Below are positions 11,900-58,120 of a stretch of 64,000 nucleotides of DNA, piece after piece. Below the pieces are notes generated by a model. The model made no database searches. It was not told where the DNA came from and worked only from the letters and a program-made list of their open reading frames with translations. Every line of letters begins with the position of its first letter. Position 1 is the stretch's first letter. The DNA is from Polychytrium aggregatum (Eukaryota; Chytridiomycota; Chytridiomycetes; Polychytriales), in the NCBI RefSeq assembly GCF_025602895.1, contig NW_026516314.1:62001-126000 (forward strand), in the 5' to 3' direction. The position numbers were made by a program, and so were the translations under genes.

Positions 11900-13459
11900 T
11901 CACGGCCACTTGCCGAGATGCTTGAGGCTGTCTATGGCACCTCGATGATCCTGGTAAGCAGACTTGCGATACCAGAAGACGGCAGTTTCCCTGTCTTCGG
12001 GGACACCAAATTCGCTTTCAAAGCACACGGCAAGAGTATACTGTCCGTATCGATTGCCCTCCTCGGCCGACCTGCGGAGCCACTCGACTGCTTTGGTGAA
12101 GTCCTCGGTGACTCCATGTCCATAGAAACGGCACGCACCAACCATCCACTGTCCGTAGGAATTGCCTTGGTAGGCAGACTTGGTGTACCACTCGAATGCC
12201 TTCGAGTCGTCCTCTGGTACACCCTGGCCACGGTAGTAGCACTCTCCAATCCAAAACTGGCTGTCGCTATGGCCTTCGTTGGCGAGCTGTTCGAAGTCAC
12301 CAGCTGCCTTTTCCCGGTCCCCAGTGGTTCCGAATCCAAGGTGCAGACATGCAGCCATCAGGTGCCTGCAGAGCCAGTCTCGCTCCGATCCCAGCCGACA
12401 CAACTCAAAGAACTTGCGAGATGTGGGCGAGTCGGATAAAGTCGAATCACCAGCCAGACATTCCGACTCTCCGAACTTGAACTCATGCGATTTGTTCACT
12501 CGAATGATCTCGATGCCCTTCTGCTTGTCCTGGACAGTACCCCGGCCGAGGTAGTGCATCCACCCAACCATGTGAGTGGCGATGGGTTTGAGGACAGGGT
12601 TGTTGGACCTGGTGCCAACTTCCTGCCAGTGGTTGAAGGCAACTTCGTCGCTCTGTTCGACATCGTGGCCGATGAACGAGAGCCATGCTCGGAGGAGCTC
12701 GATGTGGAGTCGACCATCTTCACTGCCCTGATCCGCAGGCTTGGAGTACCACTCGATGGCGGTAGTGAAGCTCTGATCGACACCTTCACCATACTGATAG
12801 CAACTTCCGAGAGCAATTTGGGCCTGAGAGATTCCGCGATCTGCAAGACCCCGATACAGCTCGACAGCCTTGGTGTGGTCTTGGCTGATTCCAACTCCGC
12901 TGCGATAACACTCGGCCAGTCGGAACTGTGCCATAGGATGGCTTGTGTTGGCGGCGTTCTCCAAATGGCGGAAGATTCGCTGGCGGATAGCCTCTGATTT
13001 GTCTGCAGACTGATCGATAGCGAGATCGACTTGAAGGATCCGTGCCAAAAAATACGATGATGATGGGTTTCCTTGGTCTGCTTGATTATTCAACCAGGAT
13101 CGGTTCGCTGTCACTTGATCCTTGCAATGAAGCGAGATGGCAATCTGGTCACTTGGTGTGAGGCCGATTCGCATCTGTCCGTCTGGATTGCACAGTCCTT
13201 CCTTCTGACACCAGGTGTGGAGGCGAGGCACCTTGGAGCTCAGGAGAGGGCGGGTGCGCTTGCACACTCGGAGCAGGGTCTTGATGGTGCTGTGATCGAG
13301 GGCGATCTGGAAACTGTCGTTGAAGCACACGATTGTGAAGATATCTGGGCTGTGTTGGAGTGGGAGCTGGGTGATATCGGGCATCGACGAGGTTGCTCTG
13401 GCTTCAGCTTGGCTTTGGTGAGTGGCAGATGATGCCGTGTTTGAAGCAGACTCGATCAT
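11900..13459 (-). CDS. SEL1-repeat protein
   Basis: A single open exon from the ATG ending at 13459 (MIESASN) to the stop at 11900-11902, 519 residues. The first ~160 residues carry no recognised domain. From there on the protein is built of SEL1 (TPR-like) repeats of about 36 residues: PMAQFRLAECYRSGVGISQD, AQIALGSCYQYGEGVDQS, SQFWIGECYYRGQGVPEDD, YGQWMVGACRFYGHGVTED, YGQYTLAVCFESEFGVPED, about seven in all, one degenerate in the middle. SEL1 repeats form a helical solenoid used as a protein-protein scaffold (ERAD, chitin synthase regulation, signalling). No signal peptide, so probably cytosolic. The repeats resemble those at the C-terminus of the kinase-like protein at 52-54 kb. The partner is unknown. 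Confidence 0.85.
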   Translation of the reverse strand: MIESASNTASSATHQSQAEARATSSMPDITQLPLQHSPDIFTIVCFNDSFQIALDHSTIKTLLRVCKRTRPLLSSKVPRLHTWCQKEGLCNPDGQMRIGLTPSDQIAISLHCKDQVTANRSWLNNQADQGNPSSSYFLARILQVDLAIDQSADKSEAIRQRIFRHLENAANTSHPMAQFRLAECYRSGVGISQDHTKAVELYRGLADRGISQAQIALGSCYQYGEGVDQSFTTAIEWYSKPADQGSEDGRLHIELLRAWLSFIGHDVEQSDEVAFNHWQEVGTRSNNPVLKPIATHMVGWMHYLGRGTVQDKQKGIEIIRVNKSHEFKFGESECLAGDSTLSDSPTSRKFFELCRLGSERDWLCRHLMAACLHLGFGTTGDREKAAGDFEQLANEGHSDSQFWIGECYYRGQGVPEDDSKAFEWYTKSAYQGNSYGQWMVGACRFYGHGVTEDFTKAVEWLRRSAEEGNRYGQYTLAVCFESEFGVPEDRETAVFWYRKSAYQDHRGAIDSLKHLGKWP

Positions 13460-13679
13460 GCTGGCCAAGTTGACGGAGACAGGAGGGAGGCAAGTGGGCG
13501 ATGGAGATGGACATGAGACAGAGAGGCATGTTGTGGCGAAGCAAGCCTGGCTCGATCCGATGGCTTGCTGGCTGGATTCATTGTTACTCGCAGCGCTGCC
13601 ACATGCATTGAATATGAATCAAGCATGAAGTCGAAAGTGGAATCGAACACCGCATTCTCGGCATACAAGTATGTGCCTC

Positions 13680-13911
13680 ATATATTCCATATCAGACCTA
13701 CCGGATCCATCTTGGCAACCACCTCTGCTTCGAACAGCCAGTCCTCATTGCCCACACTCGGAAGGATGTCAAGGTCAAATCCGAGATCAATGTCGTCACA
13801 AGGACACCGAACAGCCCACCGACTCCCCGAACTCCAAGACCATCACCCTGCCCCGCACCACAGTGCCCTGCCATGATGGCCCATGAAAGATGATGAAGTG
13901 TCAAAGGCGAG
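13680..13911 (+). pseudogene. Possible coding remnant
   Basis: One frame reads LGNHLCFEQPVLIAHTRKD then VKVKSEINVVTRTPNSP, and ends in TGA at about 13911. Composition and codon use look coding, but no start, splice partner or known domain was found. It may be a broken exon of an older gene or part of an unmodelled upstream exon. Weak call. Confidence 0.25.
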
Positions 13912-14098: not shown

Positions 14099-17000
14099 AT
14101 GTCGGGAGGTGAGTGTCGCATCGTGGCAGGATGGTGGACACTTTCACAGCAGCTGACTGGTGGCTTGCCCTGAACAGACGACTTTGATGCTTTCCTCAAA
14201 CGATATGGACTGGAGAGAAACAGGCAATGTCTGCTGGACAACGAATACGACACCATCGACTCGGTAGGTGCTGATGAGGTGGTGGAGTGTGGTCGTTGCC
14301 CAGTGGCTGATCACCTTAACGATACAGATTCTTCGGATGTCCGAGTCCGAGATGAATCAAATTGGGCTGAAGCTTGGGGCCATCAACAAGATCAAGTTTG
14401 CTCAGCACGATTATCTCAAGCAATCCACAGCCACAACAACTCCTGTTGCCCCTCCAATCGTTGCCATCTCTACCTCGACCCTCACTCCTGCCTCCACCGA
14501 GCGAGAATACAACCCGCCTGTCCTCAATCCCGAGTGGACTTGCACCAACGGCTTCCATATCCACGACATCTTCATCAGGTTTGTTGGTGGCGCTTGTTGT
14601 TGCCCGTGATCCATTCACATCCGTCTCGCATCCATCTCATCGATATCGCATCCATCCAGCTATCGTGTGGCCAGTGAGGAGGTGACTGCTGTCAAACTCC
14701 ACTCGGCCCTCAGTGTTAGCCGTGTCGGCGAGCAGCACCCCTCCCATGTCTACCTGGACGCCCGATGCCTCGAGAACGGACTGGACTGGGAGGATGGTTT
14801 CATGAACGGCCTGGCCAACTCCAAGGTCATTGTGCTCCTCCTTTCCGAGGCTGGACTCGAGAGAACCAAGACTGCTGGCACCCGCCCAGACAATCAATTC
14901 CTCGAGGTGAGTGTCGTCGATCCAGTCCAGCACCACCATCACCATCCACTCGCCATCTACTCACCAATGATCCTGTCCCAGATCGAACTGGCTCTGAAGC
15001 AGATGAAGGAGACCCAGAACACCCGCTCACCCGTCCAGATCCTGCCGATCCTCATCAAATCAAGTGTAATGATCAACGGCACCAAGTACACCAGAGACTG
15101 GTTCCCCAACAAGAACGACTTTCCCGATGCCATCCACTGCCACAGAGCCAGTCCCTCCAACCTGCACCAGATCAGCCCTCCCCTCACTGTGCGCCAGACT
15201 CTCGAGGAGTTGCTCAAGCTGCAGGCGCTGATTGCTGCCGACGACTATGCCGTCACCAAGTGAGTGTGTCTGTGTCCGACTTACTGATGGCATCCGTCTC
15301 ATCAATCAGTCAGTTGATGCAGACCATCCAGATGCTGACTCACACATCCACAGACTCGTCCCCGAGATCCGCGAGACTTGGAAGAAAACCAACCTCGTTG
15401 CCACCGTGCCAACTTATCTCCCGACTGGATCGACTGTCCTCACTGCCAACGAGAACCACGCCCTGCGACTCCTCCTCAGTCCCATCGACTCGGCCCTGGA
15501 CAGACGAGCACTCGAGAAGCTGTTTGTCGAGGGCACCCGCCAATGGCTGTTCGACCAAACCACCGACTGGGTCAACCAGGACACCACCGACACTGTCCTG
15601 TGGGTCAATGCCGTTGCTGGAGTGGGCAAGTCTGTCGCTGCCGCCCAGATCGCCAACATCCTCCAGGCAAACGCACAGTTGGTGGCAGCGCTGTTCCTCA
15701 AGTACAACGACACCCGCAAGAACAACCCTCGATCGGTGCTGAATACTATCGCATACGGTCTGTGCAAGTGGTACTCGCCGATCGGCCTCAAGCTGCTCGA
15801 TGCTGGCCACACCAAGGACAGTCTCGACAAGATGAGCATCAACGATCTGTTCAAGGCCGTGATTGAGGATCCACTCGCGGCTGTCGGTGGCTACAAACCA
15901 CAGGAAGCGATCGTGATCATGGTGGATGGACTGGACGAGTGTCATCCCCGCGACGAGATCCTCGGGTTCCTGGCCAGTGGACTGCAGCGACTGCACACGA
16001 AGCATCCGTGGCTCAAGTTACTGCTGACATCCCGACCCGAGGACGACATCAAGGCAGCATTCGATGGAGTCCCGACCAAGACAATCGAACCCTCGAGCGA
16101 GGAGAACATCCGTGATCTCGAGGTGTACATCCACCACCGACTGCTAGTGCACGGCACTCTCATTGACTCGGACCGCACCGAGGCAGTCGCCATCCTGCTG
16201 GACCAGTCCAAGACATTCGTGTGGATCAACCTGATCCTCAACACTGTCGACGCAGCATCCAAGGACGGCCCAGTGACACTCGCCACGATCAAGGACATCA
16301 ACGACAGCGCTGCCGATGTCGGGCAGCTGTACCACAAGACATTCGCCAAGATCCACTCGCAGTCGAGCCACCTGGCCGAGCTGGTCACGGTGGTGTCGGC
16401 AATCGCCACAGCCCAGTCGATCCTGACCCCGCAGATCATCGCCGATGTGTTTGGACTCGAGATCGGCGTCGTTCGCGAGTGTCTCAAGAGCCTCAGTCTG
16501 GTCCTCGATCCAGGCGCCAATGGACTGGGTCCTCGAGACAGCCAGTCCACCAACACCGAGGTCAAGTTCAACCACAAGTCGGTGGCGGACTATCTCCTCG
16601 GCGATGCATCGACTGGCCATCCGTGGCATGTGTCGACCTCGTTCCACACGGTGTTTGCCAAGGGATGTCTCGGCGAGATCCTCTCGCACGACCCAGTGAT
16701 CAACATCTGCGACATCTACGACTTTCACGACAACACCCCAGACCTCGAGGACAGGGTCGCAGACAAGATCACACCATCACTGCGATACAGCGTCGCCCAC
16801 TGGATCACACACTTTGTGTGGTGTGTGGAAGGAGTGGCCGAGTCGAGTCCGGTGTGGCAGTTGACTGAGATGGTTGATGTGGCAGCGGTGCTCACTCGGT
16901 TCGTCAAGACGCATGTGTTCTTCTGGCTCGAGTGTGGGTCGCTCACACATGTGGTCAAGCCGATCATCGAGCAACTGGCTGTGCTCCGAGGAGTGATCGC

Positions 17001-18687
17001 CAAGGCACCCAGCACCATCGTCGACGACACCACAAAGGAACTGGTCAAGGACACGTATCGATTCATCCGCGAGTTTGCCGATCCGATCATCAAGAGTGCA
17101 CCACAGGTGTACAACTCGGGGTTTGCATTCACACCGAAGGAGACGGCGATCTACAGGGCATATGCCAACCAACTCGAGGACAAGATTCCGTTCCTGGTCA
17201 CGGCTGGTCCAACACCCACCTGGGAACCGTGTGAGATGACACTCACTGGCCACACCTGGGATGTAGTATCGGTGACGATCTCACTTGATGCCAAGTGGAT
17301 TGTCTCCGGCTCCGGTGACAAGACAATCAAAATGTGGGATGCAACCACTGGCCAGCTGAAGAACACTCTCAACGGACACACAGCCGGTGCGCTCTCCGTG
17401 GCGATCTCGCCCGACGGCAAGTGGATTGCATCTGGCTCTGATGACAGCACCATCAAGGTATGGGATTCCGCCACGGGCGAGGTGATGCACACCCTTGAGG
17501 GACATACCGACCCAGTAAACTCCTTGGCGATCTCACCTGATGGCAAGTGGATTGCATCGGGCTCCAATGATATGACCATCAAAGTATGGGACATCTTTTC
17601 TGGCGAGCTCATGCGCAACATCACGGAGCACCAAGATTTTGTAAATTCGGTGGCTTTCTCGCCCGACGGCAAGTGGATCGCCTCTGGTTCTCGTGACAAG
17701 ACCATCAAGGTATGGGACCCCACCACGAGTGAGGTGAAGCACACCCTCGAAGGACATACCGACCCAGTAAACTCCATAGCCATTTCATATGATGGCAAAT
17801 ATCTCGTCTCGGGCTCAAGTGACGAGACTGTCAAGGTGTGGGATATCACCACACATCAATTGAAACTCGCTCTCGACGGACACTCAGGCGGTGTGAACTC
17901 CATGGCCATCTGGCCCGACGGCGAGTGGATCGCCTCCGGCTCGACTGACAAGACCATCAAAGTGTGGGATGCCTCCACGGGCCAGCTGAAGCACACCCTC
18001 GAGGGACACACTGACACTGTAAATTCCGTGGCCATCTCCCCCGATGGCAAGTGGATTGCGTCCTGGTCATTTGATAGAACAATCAAAATCTGGAACACAA
18101 AACAATGGAATTTGACTGACAACATCAATGTCGAATGGTATCCTTGCCAGAGCCACGGTCAGCCAACAACCTGTTATGCTGCGAATGGGAAATTTTCGGC
18201 TGATGGATCATCTCTCAGTGGAGTGTTTAGCCTATATTATCAAGGGCAATCAGGGACTGAATATTTGGAGAAGAAGATTTACTGCTGGCTACGGAATGGG
18301 AAATTGACAAGCATAAACTCAGATGAGCCACATTCCTTTGTCGCGGCATCCGGGTCATCCACTTTGGTCGATTGGATTGATAATGACCAAGCAAACAGGT
18401 TCCAGTGGATCCGACATGGTCCATACATCCTCCATATTCCATACTCCCTCCTCAACTCCCGATATTGCTTCTCTACAAAATTCGGGGGTTTGATTGCGAT
18501 GAGCAACGTTTTCCCGGTCCGGCCCCTTGTTATCCTGGTAAGTCCATATATCTTCCAATACTCTTCTCAGTTTTTGACTAACATCCTTGCCCCACAGCCA
18601 ATATACATCAGCACGCAAGAGATCCATGCCGAAGTTGCGAAATGCAAGGAGAGTGGAGTACAAACAATCCAGCGCTTGTTGCAATGA
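14099..18687 (+). CDS. SAM-TIR-NACHT-WD40 protein (NLR-like STAND ATPase)
   Basis: Seven exons fit in phase: 14099-14108, 14178-14263, 14328-14578, 14660-14906, 14982-15259, 15354-18537, 18598-18687; 1381 residues. Residues ~3-62 resemble a SAM domain (DDFDAFLKRYGLERN, then ILRMSESEMNQIGLKLGAIN). Residues ~108-290 form a TIR-like domain: FISYR strand split by an intron, CLENGLDWEDGF, VIVLLLSEAGL, and DNQFLEIELAL carrying the Glu where TIR NADases have their catalytic Glu. A NACHT ATPase follows: Walker A AVAGVGKS near 379 and Walker B IVIMVDGLDEC near 480. After a helical ~400-residue middle come seven WD40 repeats (~916-1209), each 42 residues, then a ~170-residue tail without recognised domain. 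Family knowledge: NACHT-WD40 proteins in fungi (HET-E type) sense ligands with the propeller and trigger cell death; a TIR effector would act on NAD+ or signal by assembly. That role here is inference. The last 60-base intron is optional: retaining it keeps the frame. Confidence 0.88.
17230..18111 (+). repeat. Seven 126-base coding repeats (WD40 blades)
   Basis: Each unit encodes one 42-residue blade of the form LEGHTDPVNS...DGKWIASGS...TIKVWD. Units 3 and 5 share an almost identical block (GGACATACCGACCCAGTAAA), as expected when blades are exchanged by recombination. Confidence 0.85.
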
Positions 18688-52027: not shown

Positions 52028-54025
52028 ATGCCCGTGCTCGAAACTGCCGCTGCCGTCGCTGCTATCGCTGCACTCGCTCAGCATTCCAGTGGCTCCTTCC
52101 AAGGCCTCGCCCAAGTTGCCAAGACCCTCTTCACCGCTGTCCAGTAGGCGGATGAGAATCAAAAGTCGTGGGAATTCCTGGTCAATCCTTCCTGCGATAT
52201 TTTGCTCACTCTCTCCCGGTCTCGGACAAATGCGCCTGGGTTCGCCGAGCAAGCGGACAAGCTCACTACCTTCTTCAACACTATCCGTGACTATTACACC
52301 AACGAGGTCCAGTCCCTCCACAAGGTCCTGCGAGTCTTCAAATCGGACAAGATCCGCCGCCGAATCGAGCAGTACTGTCGACAACTCGATTGCCTCTGTC
52401 AGAATGTCGCCCTGGAACTGACCATCGACAGCAACAATCGTCTCAATGACGCAGACCTCCGCCGAACCCTGCAACAAGACGAGAACCAGAACAAGACTCA
52501 GATCAATGAACTGGCTTCTCTGACGCAGCAGAACCCCGCCATGGCTTTGCAGTGGCTCAACATCCCAGTGAATGGGCAGCAAGACCAGCAGCGGCACCAG
52601 GGAGCCGCGGCGCTTGAGGAGCTCCGGGATGACAGCTCAACCAGTGCCGATTGGAAGAACAAGGCCATCATCCCCCTTCTCGAGACGCTGAAAAGAACAT
52701 CTCCTGCCGCCGAGTCCGCCCAACCTGAAAGCTGGCGCATTTTCCCAGCCTCCATCATCAACCGCTCCGCTGAACCCATCTTTTCTGGTGGCTTTGGTGA
52801 TGTTTACACTGCCACGTTGAAAAGCGCCTGCGTTGCCGTGAAGCAATTCCGACGCAGCTTCCTGGATAATGAGATTGCCGAGTTCCGCAAAGAGATTGGG
52901 ATCTGGCATCAACTGAGCCACAAGCACATCCTCACACTCTGCGGCGCCTGCGACACTGCGGAGAAGCCCTTCATTGTCTCCCCATTCATGAAAAACGGCA
53001 CCCTCAAATCGCACCTGGGTGGGTCCTCCCATCGCTCCCTCAACGAGAAGCTTCGCTTGATGAGCGAGGCGGCTTCAGGCATGGCGTATCTCCACAGCAA
53101 GAGCATCATCCACGCGAACCTGAAATCCTCCAACGTCCTAATTGGACCAAGCTTTGAAGCGCTGATTTGTGACTTTGGCATGTCCCGCATCAAAGAAATC
53201 TCGTCATCGTCGACCTCTCGCACACCTGCCACACCCATGGACGGAACGCTGATGTACAAGGCCCCGGAGATGTTCCAGGCTACCAATCTGAAGCGTGCCT
53301 CCCCTGCCATCGACGTCTACGCCTTTGCCATTCTCTGCTGTGAGGCACTCAAGAATTGTAGCGCCATATTCTTGGCCACACAGAAAATTGAACGTGATGT
53401 CCCCAATGGCACGCGGCCCCGCCGGTTCGATGGAGTGCCTGACCCACTGTGGGCACTGATCACCGAATGCTGGGACCAAGATCCAACCAAACGCCCAGCC
53501 TTTGAAGTGGTATCCTCTCGGGTGAGCGCCATCAGATATGAAGCAGCCGCAGGAGATCCGGAAGCGCAGTTCACCATTGGAAAATCGGTTTACTTTGACG
53601 CGAAGAGCTACCCCGATGCCTTCGAGTGGTACACCAAAGCCGCCAATCAAGGGCATGCGCAAGCCCAGTACATCCTCTCCGAATGGTACCACTATGGCTT
53701 CTTTGTTACCCAGGACGATGCCAAAGCCGCAGAGTGGTGCATCAAGGCCGCGAAGCAGGGACATGCAAAAGCCCAGTACAAAGCCGGCGAGTACTGTGAG
53801 TATAGCGTTGGTGTCACCAAAGACGATGCCAAAGCCGCCGAGTGGTACATCATGGCCGCGGAGCAGAAATATGCAAAAGCTCAGTACAAAGCCGGCGAAT
53901 GTTACAAAAAAAGCAAAGGTGTTATGAAGAATATCGAGACTGCTCGATACTGGTACAGAATGGCTGCTGACCAGGGCTATGTGTCCGCCCAGTCCGCACT
54001 CGATCAGCTCCCTGACAACCAATGA
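52028..54025 (+). CDS. MLKL-like: helical-bundle + pseudokinase + SEL1 repeats; in-frame TAG at codon 40
   Basis: From the ATG at 52028 the frame reads LETAAAVAAIAALAQHSSGS, then LAQVAKTLFTAVQ, TAG (52145-52147), and continues in the same frame (ADENQKSWEFLVNPSCDILL) to TGA at 54023. Residues 1-~170 are all helical and look like the four-helix N-terminal domain of MLKL/RPW8-type proteins (LHKVLRVFKSDKIRRRIEQY, CLCQNVALEL). Residues ~245-520 are a TKL-type kinase fold: GGFGDVY near 254, VAVKQF near 271, CDFGMS near 382 and APE near 412. The catalytic loop is HANLKSSN instead of HRDLKxxN, so the base Asp is gone and activity is doubtful. Four SEL1 repeats end the protein (YTKAANQGHAQAQYILSEWY, KAAKQGHAKAQYKAGE). 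A signalling or membrane-disrupting role is inferred only from architecture. The TAG cannot be removed with a plausible intron. Confidence 0.8.
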
Positions 54026-54594: not shown

Positions 54595-57500
54595 ATGAGT
54601 GCTCCCGCGACCCACATGCCCTTCCGCCCTGTGCTCGTGCTGTGGTCCATCTCACTCATCTTGGGGATCGCGGGTAGGCGACTTTCTTTGCTCCTCCGAG
54701 ATGCCATCAATGATCGCCCCTGATACTGATCCCACCGTCCGGCCTCAGGCGCATGGGAGCAGATTGACCCCGCGCTCGTTGGGGTCGGGGCCACCTTTCC
54801 AGCGTCGCTATACTCGACGCTTGCCCAAGTATACTCTGAGTACGACAGCGTGTGGAGCTACACATTCACCGGTACGAGCTCTGGTGCAGGCCGAACCGCC
54901 CTCATCTCGGGTGCACCCAACTTGACTTGGGCCGCCTCGGACACCATTCCGCCAAACACTTCGTTCATTGGCCCTGGAGGCACCCTTGGACAGCTGGTTC
55001 CCATTCCATCAGTTATCGGGTGAGTCCTGAGCTTCCGGGCGTAGCCAGGGATGCAGTCAGTGACGGGCCAGGGATGCAGCCCGAGGTGGAGTCAGAGATG
55101 CAGTCCGACGGAGCCGACGCGCATTGGTCTCATTTTTTCCTTCCTTTCCCTCGGTTACAGTGGCATTGCCGTGGTCTACCACCTCAACATAACCAACCTT
55201 GTTCTTACTCGGCAGAATGTTGCCGACATCTTCACGGGAAAAATCGCTGCCTGGAACGACTCGCGGCTCGTCCAGAATAACCCTGCGCTGGCGAGTATCA
55301 GCGCGCCGATCCAGACAATCGTGCGGAGCGGCTCGTCTGGAACGACTTCCAACTTCCTCTGCGCCCTGGGGTCATTCGATCCAACCCTCAACCTCCCCTC
55401 CATGCCTACTTATCCCCTTTCCTCATGGGGATCGGCCAGCCAGCCTTTCTTTGGAACCACAAACACCATGGTCTCCAATACCATCCAAGTGAGCCCGTAC
55501 ACGATCGGATACGTGGACTATTCCGATGCATCCAGCACGCTGGCGTCGCTAGGATCTAGCCAGAGCATGTACTCGATTGCTCGCATTGTGAATCGGAACG
55601 GAGATGTCGTTATGCCTTCAATTGGGGCATTTCAGGTAAAGATCCTGCTGCTCATGCTCTCCAGCCCAAGCTCCAATGATGATCCCGGCCAGCCCCGATC
55701 CCAATCGAGTGCATGACTGTTGACGAGCCTGTTGCTCCATCAGACCGCCCTTTCAATACCGCCGGCCCAGAATCTGTCGTCGGTGCCGCACTTCTCGGAC
55801 GACGTTGCAAGCATTGTGCAATCGCTCTATATCGACTCGAGCGTTCCGGGAGCATACCCGCTGTTGGCGCCAACATATGTGTTTCTGCGCCAGGATTCGG
55901 ATATTTATGGCGTCGCCGAGCCAAAGATTCGAGCGACGCTTCGGTTCATATTCTGGATGATATTCGGAGGTACTGAGCTGGTAAGCAGGGCAGTGTTGCG
56001 GCCGTGGTGCCGTTCGCCAGGCTCTGCAACACGGATCAGTGTCCGTGACGATCCACACCCTGTTCCACGCACTTGATACACCATGCAGCTCAGTAACGCA
56101 CTCGTCGACAGCTGCCCTCGCCACGACCGACGGCCTCGCCCTCCACCGAAGCCATCTTCACGCAAAATCAGTTTGTTCACTTCCAAGACCGCACCCTGCT
56201 GGCTTTTGCTTACGACGCCCTCAAACTCGTTACCCATGGTGGGGTCGCTCTCTTTGATCCCCGCTCGCCCTGCAACCCAGCCTTTGATGCAAATGGCAGC
56301 TACGTCAGCGCCAACTCGTGCAAGCACGGGTACTGTGTCGTTGACGGGCCCTTCCAGGATGCCTCAGTCGCTCAGTGTATCTGCGACGTGGGCTTCTACA
56401 ACAACGAGCACACTGACTGCTCCGAGCCCGCCGAGCCCTTCATGGTGCTCTTCTCGGGGTATCATGCATTCAACTGCGGAGTCATCGCCCTGCTTTTGGC
56501 CGCGGGGCTATGTAACAGCGCCATACTAGTCCTCCTGATTGTGTGGAAGGACAAGCCCGACATCCGAGCCATTTCGCCAAACTGCTGCTACATCATCGTG
56601 GTTGGATGCCGTAAGAATCGAATCGATGGCTGATTTGATGTCCTTCGCACCGAGCAGGAACGCGTCTAAAGAGCACATCCGTTGACATAGTGTGTTGCCG
56701 GGTCCCTGGAATATCATGATTTCCCATCGAGCTGACAAGGCCTGTGCACTTCCGTCAAGTCCTTGGTCAGGTCGGCGCACTCTTCTATTCAGCCGAGCCG
56801 AGCAGCATGGTATGCACAGCCCGCATCTTCTTCCCCGTTGCTTCTTTCTCCTCCGTCTTCAGGCAAGTCCAAAGGCAGTCATAGTCCTTGCATTGCGGCC
56901 GGATTGAGCCACTGGGAACCCCCAGATGCTCGAGTCGATCCAGGGCCACTGCTCCGCTGCTGACACTGCCTCTGATCATCGCACTGCTCCCGCCACTCAG
57001 CATGCTGCTAATGAAGTCTCTGCGCATATACATGATATTCGAGAACAAGCGAATGCGTATCTTCAAGACCCCCGACTGGAAACTCATGCTTGGGACAGCG
57101 TTCGTCGTTGCTATCGAGTTGGTCATCTGCACCTTCTGGGTTGTCTTTGAGCAGCCAAAGGTTCAGGTGGAAGGCAGTCTCTATATTTTGACTTGCAGCA
57201 CTCCTTCGGGATCGACGAATGTACCCGAGGTGCTCCTCTACGTGCTCAACGGAGGCATTATGGCAGGATGCGTCTTTGCGGCCTACCTCACCAAGAATGC
57301 CCATCGGCGCTTCCAGGAATCCAAGGCCATTGGGCTCTGCAGCTATCTGGTGCTCATCACCCTTCTATTGTGTTTGCCCATCGCCTATGCGCTCACAAAC
57401 GATCCCGAGTCCTATGCGCTCTATGCTATCGGGCGAGCTACTCTGTCGTGCGTGGTGATTGTGGTCTCGTTGCTGGTGCCGCTGGTGCTCTTCAGCGGTC

Positions 57501-58120
57501 GCCTCATCCGCACCCTCTTCAACCAGCAGAGCGAGCTCGAGCCTCGCTCCCAGGTCAGTTCTCCGAAAGCAACCAGCGAATCTGACCAGGCGAGTCAGGG
57601 CATGGCTGCCACAAACCTCTTTGCCTTTGGCTACGACTGCAGTCTCCGAGGCTTCAAGTTCGGTGGTGCCTGGGTGTCATCCACGGTGCTGGTCTTCACG
57701 AGTCTAGATCTGATCGAGTTCCGGGAGCCGAGGATTGATGGATGCGTCCAAGCCAGCTTCCGCTTCTCGTCTTGCCAATGCAGACCCTGCGAGACGACCA
57801 AGGATCCTGATTCAGAGCAGGGGGCGACGAGGAGCATCTGGCTTCGACACAACAAGACTCTCTTCACACTCGAGTTTGTCTCCAAGAGAAGTGCAGAGCT
57901 GTTCCTCGAGAATTATGCCAGTGCCAGATCCCGACCAAGCGTCGTTTTGGGCCGACTGCAGCACGATTCAATGATGGCGTCGGACGATGTGGCGGACATG
58001 GCCACACACAAGCCCGAGGAGACGATCCTGGCGAGATTCAGAACCGACAACCGGCCCATGCCGGGAGCCAGCCCCACGTCCGGTCTAGCCGGCATCATCG
58101 GTTCGGCCCTTGACTCCTAA
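54595..58120 (+). CDS. PstS-like phosphate-binding ectodomain fused to class C GPCR
   Basis: Seven exons in phase: 54595-54673, 54749-55019, 55161-55635, 55744-55980, 56112-56610, 56760-56862, 56944-58120; 946 residues. Residues 1-26 are a signal peptide. Residues 27-354 match PstS-type phosphate-binding proteins: VGVGATFPASLYSTLAQVY, FTGTSSGAGRTALISG, WAASDTIPP, NVADIFTGKIAAWNDSRL, IVRSGSSGTTSNFLCALG, IGYVDYSDA. A Cys-rich EGF-like linker follows (SCKHGYCVVDG, CICDVGFYNN). Then come seven membrane helices of the 7tm_3 type (GVIALLLAAGLCNSAILVLL, LLTLPLIIALLPPLSML, LMLGTAFVVAIELVICTFWV, LCSYLVLITLLLCLPIAYAL, LSCVVIVVSLLVPLVLFSG) and a ~200-residue cytosolic tail. The intron after 56862 has a GC donor (AG|GCAAGT). 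Predicted role: sensing extracellular phosphate or a similar anion and signalling through a G protein. Ligand identity is inference. Confidence 0.85.

Follow-up and report, generated by a model that had tools for sequence, protein, structure and literature searches.

The window analysed here, a stretch of 64,000 nucleotides (C16:62001-126000; positions below are counted within the window), carries on its forward strand, at 14099-18687, a gene whose predicted product joins a SAM domain, a TIR domain, a NACHT-type ATPase and a WD40 repeat array in a single chain. It belongs to a large and changeable gene family, which accounts for most of the NACHT places that were detected in the genome. The sequence features of the family make it likely that the product is a receptor of the NOD-like receptor (NLR) type, one of the signal transduction ATPases with numerous domains (STAND), in which a variable WD40 sensor is coupled to a SAM-TIR effector end and whose repertoire is renewed by the turnover of repeat units and gene segments. 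The gene is laid out as follows:

14099-18687 (+): SAM-TIR-NACHT-WD40 gene, seven exons, 1381 residues (splicing, Pfam, same introns in relatives)
14099-14108, 14178-14263, 14328-14578, 14660-14906, 14982-15259, 15354-18537, 18598-18687 (+): exons of the spliced model
14180-14405 (+): SAM domain, residues 5-58, exons 2-3, with intron 14264-14327 inside (SAM_2; family profile A2 against SAM domains in the PDB)
14544-15257 (+): TIR domain and C-terminal extension, residues 105-290, exons 3-5 (TIR_2; family profile A1, leading to the SARM1 TIR)
14904-14906 (+): Glu198, last codon of exon 4, aligned with the Glu of HKEIVTAL in SARM1 (profile alignment)
15431-15464 (+): edge of the shared NACHT homology (starts of DNA matches)
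15532-16035 (+): NACHT-type ATPase core (NPHP3_N), residues 351-518 (Pfam, 100.8 bits)
15613-15633 (+): Walker A, VAGVGKS (sequence)
15919-15942 (+): Walker B, MVDGLDEC (sequence)
17242-18123 (+): WD40 array of seven 42-residue (126-nt) units (Pfam, seven WD40 stretches; unit search)
18124-18687 (+): C-terminal tail, with intron 18538-18597 inside (splice alignment)

The seven exons splice in phase into a frame of 1381 residues with a single terminal stop, and all six introns have GT-AG ends and are 60-94 nt long. A preliminary description of this DNA had already proposed one SAM-TIR-NACHT-WD40 protein from seven in-phase exons, and the splicing, the Pfam results and the introns shared by relatives bear it out. 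In the whole protein, Pfam placed NPHP3_N, a NACHT-like ATPase model, at residues 351-518 (cut-off 24.8 bits) and WD40 in seven stretches with a total of 292.3 bits, in line with the seven blades that had been read from the sequence. Since this search gave the best 25 of 60 families, which apart from NPHP3_N are all WD40 or propeller models, the SAM and TIR domains were taken from separate pieces. SAM_2 scored 21.5 bits at residues 5-54 of a 104-residue N-terminal piece (cut-off 20.5) and 23.4 bits on a 64-residue piece, while TIR_2 scored 31.4 bits on a 213-residue TIR piece (cut-off 28), so that the profile search suggested in the preliminary description found all four domains. The N-terminal pieces matched SAM and TIR_2 models, with no HET up to E 1. 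Both Walker motifs are intact, as had been described; the FISYR motif of the TIR spans exons 3 and 4, and the TIR-coding stretch contains the introns 14579-14659 and 14907-14981. The chain thus carries the parts by which a NACHT STAND receptor is recognized, namely an ATPase with Walker A and B, a C-terminal repeat sensor and an N-terminal effector or adaptor. The NACHT piece had no phmmer match in the PDB up to E 0.01 and no match in PADLOC.

The comparative case for a single coding frame from SAM to NACHT is strong. Window residues 1-400 were mapped with our own splice-aware aligner onto 40 loci of this genome, giving 40 aligned rows that include haplotype copies and do not stand for 40 independent genes. 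The intron at residue 32 (phase 0) recurs in 32 of the 32 rows spanning that site, that at residue 116 (phase 2) in 38 of 39, that at residue 198 (phase 0) in 39 of 40, and that at residue 291 (phase 2), which separates TIR from NACHT, in 38 of 40. This last intron is 60-169 nt long, and in 28 of the 38 rows its length is not divisible by three. The only two rows that lack it, C165 and C375 (loci are named here by contig), hold the TIR end and the NACHT start in one stop-free stretch, which covers residues 189-394 and 190-394, respectively. Since the place and phase of the introns are kept while their lengths vary, it is very likely that SAM, TIR and NACHT are encoded in one transcript. It could be argued that the gene model is wrong and that SAM/TIR and NACHT-WD40 are two adjacent genes, because the junction in the window crosses intron 5 (15260-15353) and the one-transcript case is drawn from sequence comparison; against this stand the recurrence of the junction intron at the same residue and phase, at such varied lengths, and the open junction of C165 and C375, and we regard this alternative as highly improbable and rejected a separate SAM/TIR gene. 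In the tail, the phase 0 intron of the window was also placed in C212, C386, C146, C235 and C82, among six other loci on which the alignment was tried (C135 gave none); the tail alignments of C386, C146, C235 and C82 are low-scoring, and those of C146 and C235 contain extra doubtful introns.

We then placed the gene within its genome. The assembly comprises 64.7 Mb in 418 contigs, and many loci occur in near-identical pairs, as in an assembly that holds both haplotypes. A genome search with window residues 1-394 gave 190 matches, and the NACHT model gave 106, which were reduced to 101 places by dropping five second pieces. At least 88 of these 101 places have a TIR of the family upstream on the same strand, no more than 2.5 kb away, counting both haplotypes and pairing with the 93 TIR places among the matches listed. 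Matches to the NACHT model also turned up in 9 of the 14 prokaryote genomes used as controls, so that the weakest places may be other ATPases. The preliminary description of a complete fungal NLR with TIR and SAM therefore holds for the architecture, and what it presented as a single gene is one of a large family. Among the 13 places counted as TIR-less, splice alignment revealed a TIR at that of C358 (220 kb), and other TIR_2 matches lie near those of C90 (280 kb), C223 (603 kb) and C320 (9 kb). At C90:280-282 kb and C223:602-603 kb (L002, L007), TIR_2 occurs together with a NACHT that aligns weakly to that of the window, and a second TIR-NACHT family may therefore exist. Two divergent-facing copies about 12 kb apart at C179:600-614 kb (L025, L029) share the same short deletion before the Walker A lysine. 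A HET search of the genome gave no match; the control genomes also gave none, which makes this a weak negative. Radial-spoke matches, many matches to Chitin_synth_2 (a model that also matched in 4 of 14 prokaryote controls) and 27 matches to Zn2Cys6 domains together point to a zoosporic fungus, chytrid or blastoclad alike, and these flagellar and fungal markers fit the early-diverging fungus that had been suggested.

Judged by profile, the solved TIR nearest to that of the family is the one of SARM1. Profile A1 was made from 15 diverse family TIRs chosen from the 40 rows and searched against PDB sequences; it omits both copies without the conserved Glu, three copies with a frameshift or stop in or near the piece, and close duplicates. 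All 15 members match TIR_2 at E<=0.1, and they are as low as 45% identical to the window TIR. The first 17 PDB matches are all SARM1 entries (E 1.5e-5 to 0.003). Next, at 0.1, stand three hits on a cell adhesion protein that are due to chance, and then tir-1 (0.18), a chain known just as 'putative uncharacterized protein' (0.23), a chimaera of SARM1 and tir-1 (0.39), TcpB (0.39) and another TIR (0.72). In the profile alignment the family Glu (E198 of the window, within DNQFLEIELAL) falls on the Glu of HKEIVTAL in SARM1, which we take to be the catalytic E642, in agreement with the position in the NAD-cleaving (NADase) site that had been assigned to it. Because the Glu-less copies were left out of A1, the invariance of the Glu within the profile is no evidence; the count across the aligned rows is, and there it is kept in 37 of 40, the exceptions being Gln in C57 (275 kb), Gly in C66 (32 kb) and one ambiguous row (C179). 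The TIR is thus a SARM1-like domain that possibly cuts nicotinamide adenine dinucleotide (NAD+). When a TIR from another family of this genome was searched against the PDB, its matches were Cat1 (0.008) and another TIR, although as a single sequence it is not compared like for like. A close prokaryotic source of the TIR was considered and rejected, since profile A1 picked out 104 stretches by pattern on genome contigs and none was confirmed by tblastn, in a search that covers close relatives only. At C57:274-276 kb (L058) the change of the TIR Glu to Gln is accompanied by a Walker A without its lysine (DMS in place of GKS), in a NACHT still 87-88% identical to that of the window. In the pair C9 and C79 (L014, L021), both copies have a TIR in which some 440 bases intervene directly after FIS.

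The SAM call rests on the family profile, because the SAM_2 score of the window is barely above the cut-off. Profile A2, made from 17 rows chosen from the 40, rules out a chance match: all 17 members match SAM_2 at E<=0.1, and the best PDB match of the profile is the SAM of Caskin-1 (8e-13), followed by those of SHIP2 and Eph receptors. The SAM of SARM1 is the weakest of the 27 listed matches (0.009). The likeness to SARM1 drawn in the preliminary description therefore stands for the TIR but not for the SAM, which is nearer to the Caskin and Eph-receptor types and has no special likeness to that of SARM1. In 32 of the 40 rows the alignment takes in most of the SAM. A SAM_1 search of the genome found seven places, none of them at a NACHT place, the family SAM being split by an intron.

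Selection was assessed by the ratio of nonsynonymous to synonymous differences per site (pN/pS) among pairs with a TIR pS of 0.02-0.5. The mean was 0.34 in the SAM (46 pairs), 0.36 in the TIR core (83 pairs), 0.32 in the TIR extension (83 pairs) and 0.25 in the NACHT start (83 pairs), compared to 0.76 in the linker between SAM and TIR (67 pairs), indicating purifying selection on SAM, TIR and NACHT. The DNA matches also point to a boundary within the gene: in the match table for 14099-16400, for which 40 of 112 candidates were scored, 26 of 45 matches begin at query bases 1333-1366, just upstream of the NACHT. When the window is compared with C112, C57, C59 and C361, the TIR pS is 0.73-0.77 and near saturation, whereas the NACHT pS is 0.17-0.30 at residues 335-460 and 0.19-0.32 at residues 461-618; with C165 and C358 there is little contrast (TIR pS 0.66-0.69, NACHT pS 0.51-0.64). 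A low NACHT pS is not expected from selection at the protein level alone, and exchange or conversion of NACHT segments between genes that differ in their SAM-TIR ends is therefore the probable cause. Compared to C212, the other haplotype of this locus, the window is only 92-94% identical at 13401-13800, just upstream of the gene, where C212 also has a 46-nt insertion and the flanking bins are about 99% identical; further patches of lower identity lie at 16001-16200 (94.5%) and 16601-16800 (91.5%). These patches look as if other copies had been the donors in conversion events.

A search for WD40 units in 15 loci found them in 13 (none in C373 and C179). The statistics cover 74 units from 12 loci, after C375 was dropped as a near-copy of C165 together with units under 22/42 consensus identity, and they count both the window and C212. 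At this locus the window has seven units and C212 nine, in flanks that are 99% identical, and the insertion is exactly 252 nt. Two of six haplotype pairs differ in unit number, this one (7/9) and C373/C135 (1/6, a difference of 630 nt or five units), and the number is equal in the other four. C235/C32 and C9/C79 differ only in the four key residues, so that the four-residue code differs in four of the six pairs, whereas C82/C372 and C165/C375 agree in both number and code. Both flanks were compared for the window and C212 only; the other five pairs were taken from identities of 97.6-99.8% and could be recent duplicates. The arrays of C235 and C32, a pair 99.5% identical, match themselves at an offset of 378 nt (three units), and one unit differs between them at the recognition positions (WYRK versus RTRK).

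Across 92 within-locus unit pairs with a DNA identity of at least 72%, the most variable repeat positions are 25, 7, 6, 34, 35, 9, 5 and 27, in that order. Positions 7, 9, 25 and 27 rank 2, 6, 1 and 8 of 42, and the probability that four random positions would rank as high is 0.00035 among all 42 positions and 0.0098 among 19 hand-chosen 'free' positions. At these four positions pN is 0.473 compared to 0.135 elsewhere, and pS is 0.489 compared to 0.398. The pattern recalls the HNWD genes of Podospora; papers are cited here by PMC number, and statements drawn from them are limited to excerpts of their texts. In HNWD genes, codons 7, 9, 25 and 27 are strongly positively selected and codons 8 and 26 are conserved (PMC1805685), and the units are classed by seven positions (PMC12222747), which, when shifted by five, would correspond by our reckoning to positions 5, 6, 7, 9, 25, 27 and 34. 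All seven of these are among the top eight variable positions in the present family.

These comparisons place the gene as HNWD-like in part without making it an HNWD member, the HET domain being absent and the units less alike, and as carrying a SARM1-like TIR without being a SARM1. With het-e, het-d and het-r of Podospora anserina (HET-NACHT-WD40) it shares an N-terminal TIR-related effector, a NACHT and a WD40 array, as well as polymorphism in unit number and variability at repeat positions 7, 9, 25 and 27 (PMC1805685, PMC2873952, PMC12222747). Unlike them, it has SAM and TIR_2 in place of HET, and its family has many more copies and belongs to what looks like a zoosporic fungus rather than a filamentous ascomycete. 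SARM1/TIR-1, the animal ARM-SAM-SAM-TIR NADase, is what the TIR profile matches best in the PDB, the Glu being aligned, and also has SAM and TIR in one chain; the window gene, by contrast, has one SAM followed by TIR at the N-terminus of an NLR, with no ARM and with NACHT-WD40 instead. A TIR_2-type TIR stands where many Dikarya NLRs use HET, a domain long proposed as a distant relative of TIR. Plant TIR-NB-LRR proteins likewise have a TIR effector before a STAND ATPase and a repeat sensor, whereas the window gene has an ATPase of NACHT type, a WD40 sensor and a SAM in front. The likeness to Thoeris ThsB, a bacterial TIR of phage defence, consists of a weak match of the TIR in PADLOC (E 0.0008), and ThsB is not known to have a STAND or WD40 part.

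The preliminary description had called the effector unusual for a fungal NLR. TIR has been reported in NLRs of Chytridiomycota and SAM_Ste50p among fungal NLR N-termini (PMC9815663), so the parts are not new; what appears undescribed is their combination, since the excerpted text of that paper names neither SAM and TIR in one NLR nor an expansion with variable WD40 arrays, and no description of SAM-TIR-NACHT-WD40 or of such an expansion was found in excerpts of the open-licence PMC literature. In another study no NLRs were found in chytrids (PMC4986451, in excerpt). If the present genome is chytrid-like, a family behind at least 88 of 101 NACHT places, with both haplotypes counted, changes this earlier picture.

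In the receptor that we propose, the WD40 propeller would bind a variable partner, which could be a parasite protein, a protein of another individual or a guarded host protein. Binding would free the NACHT for nucleotide exchange and oligomerization, crowding the N-terminal SAM and TIR, and the SAM could strengthen or steer this assembly. The crowded TIR would then cleave NAD+, leading to cell death or a nucleotide signal. The repertoire may be renewed by the gain and loss of WD40 units, by change at a few repeat positions and by the exchange of NACHT segments between SAM-TIR ends.

Several observations weigh against this reading. A frameshift mark was present in the aligned part of 7 of the 40 rows, and in C212 a 17-nt insertion near 16368 breaks the frame, so that, of the two alleles, that of the window may be the functional one, unless the insertion is an assembly error; together these suggest that some members of the family are in decay or were misassembled. 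Eight of the 40 rows show no SAM, and on those eight loci no match of the SAM profile was better than E 0.025, compared to 1e-12 or better on two control loci, indicating that the SAM is not essential to the family. The window TIR searched alone with phmmer had no match in the PDB, only profile A1 giving one, and a structure predicted from the single sequence of the window frame with introns retained had a mean predicted local distance difference test score of 31.5, which is uninformative on the fold. In the WD40 array, pooled pN/pS at the four positions is about 1, in a comparison made without an ordinary WD40 control protein, so that these positions are diversified and positive selection is unproven. 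Finally, the window units are 50-67% identical to one another, with none of 21 pairs reaching 80%, whereas HNWD units are 80-100% identical within a gene (PMC12222747). Mean unit identity across the arrays measured is 44-71% (highest in C146, 71%), and pairs at 80% or more number 5 of 45 in C235, 2 of 28 in C146, 1 of 28 in C386 and 1 of 36 in C212; being below that of HNWD, this identity suggests recent concerted evolution in some copies only.

Some of these points could be taken to mean that this is mainly a repeat family driven by recombination and in decay, in which little function is left. The frameshift marks and the broken C212 allele would fit, as would the interrupted TIR of C9 and C79, the array of C373 that is down to one unit, and the only moderate identity of most WD40 units. 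However, 33 of the 40 N-terminal coding sequences contain neither a frameshift nor a stop (C9 and C79 being among them only because the aligner treated their TIR interruption as introns), the pN/pS values of SAM, TIR and NACHT are purifying, the introns are kept in phase and the spliced window copy reads through as a single open frame, all of which make general decay improbable. A different objection concerns the effector. Many animal TIRs are scaffolds, and the TIR of this family might likewise recruit TIR or SAM proteins after NACHT oligomerization, in the way of MyD88, without cleaving NAD+. The adjoining SAM would suit recruitment, and the two copies without the Glu, C57 and C66, have no frameshift mark in their aligned part. 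Yet the NADase SARM1 is the only solved TIR that the profile matched at E under 0.01, the Glu is retained in nearly all rows in spite of the low identity of some A1 members to the window TIR, and the C57 copy also lacks the Walker A lysine, as would be expected of a copy losing all function; we therefore think a pure scaffold unlikely.

A SAM-TIR receptor with a variable sensor could also serve self/non-self recognition between individuals, as HNWD genes do in Podospora, rather than defence against parasites. That WD40 change peaks at the HNWD positions and that units are gained and lost speak for this use. The organism, however, looks zoosporic, and zoosporic fungi mostly have unicellular thalli without routine hyphal fusion, which leaves little occasion for heterokaryon incompatibility. 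A review, in the excerpts consulted, also places most fungal NLRs outside allorecognition (PMC12881547), and we give allorecognition a minor share of the probability. Returning to the receptor reading, a wider picture can tentatively be drawn, in which a flagellated, early-branching fungus would maintain an expanded and changing recognition repertoire that combines a SARM1-like TIR NADase on NACHT-WD40 with HNWD-like WD40 change; we hold this to be a serious possibility, though not the probable case. If true, such repertoire building would predate hyphal fusion and HET or be independent of them, and its first use would have been defence, not incompatibility. The gene set also allows the question of allorecognition versus immunity to be put to fungal NLRs outside hyphal fusion, with the haplotype-variable WD40 arrays as a direct readout.

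An Rfam search of the window gave no match. Three neighbouring features of the window were also observed:

11900-13618 (-): reading frame with Sel1 repeats (173.7 bits), divergent, just upstream of the NLR gene
52148-54025 (+): protein kinase and Sel1 repeats fused in one frame
56885-58120 (+): 7tm_3 domain of the class C G-protein-coupled receptor type, which is unusual in fungi beyond the early-branching ones

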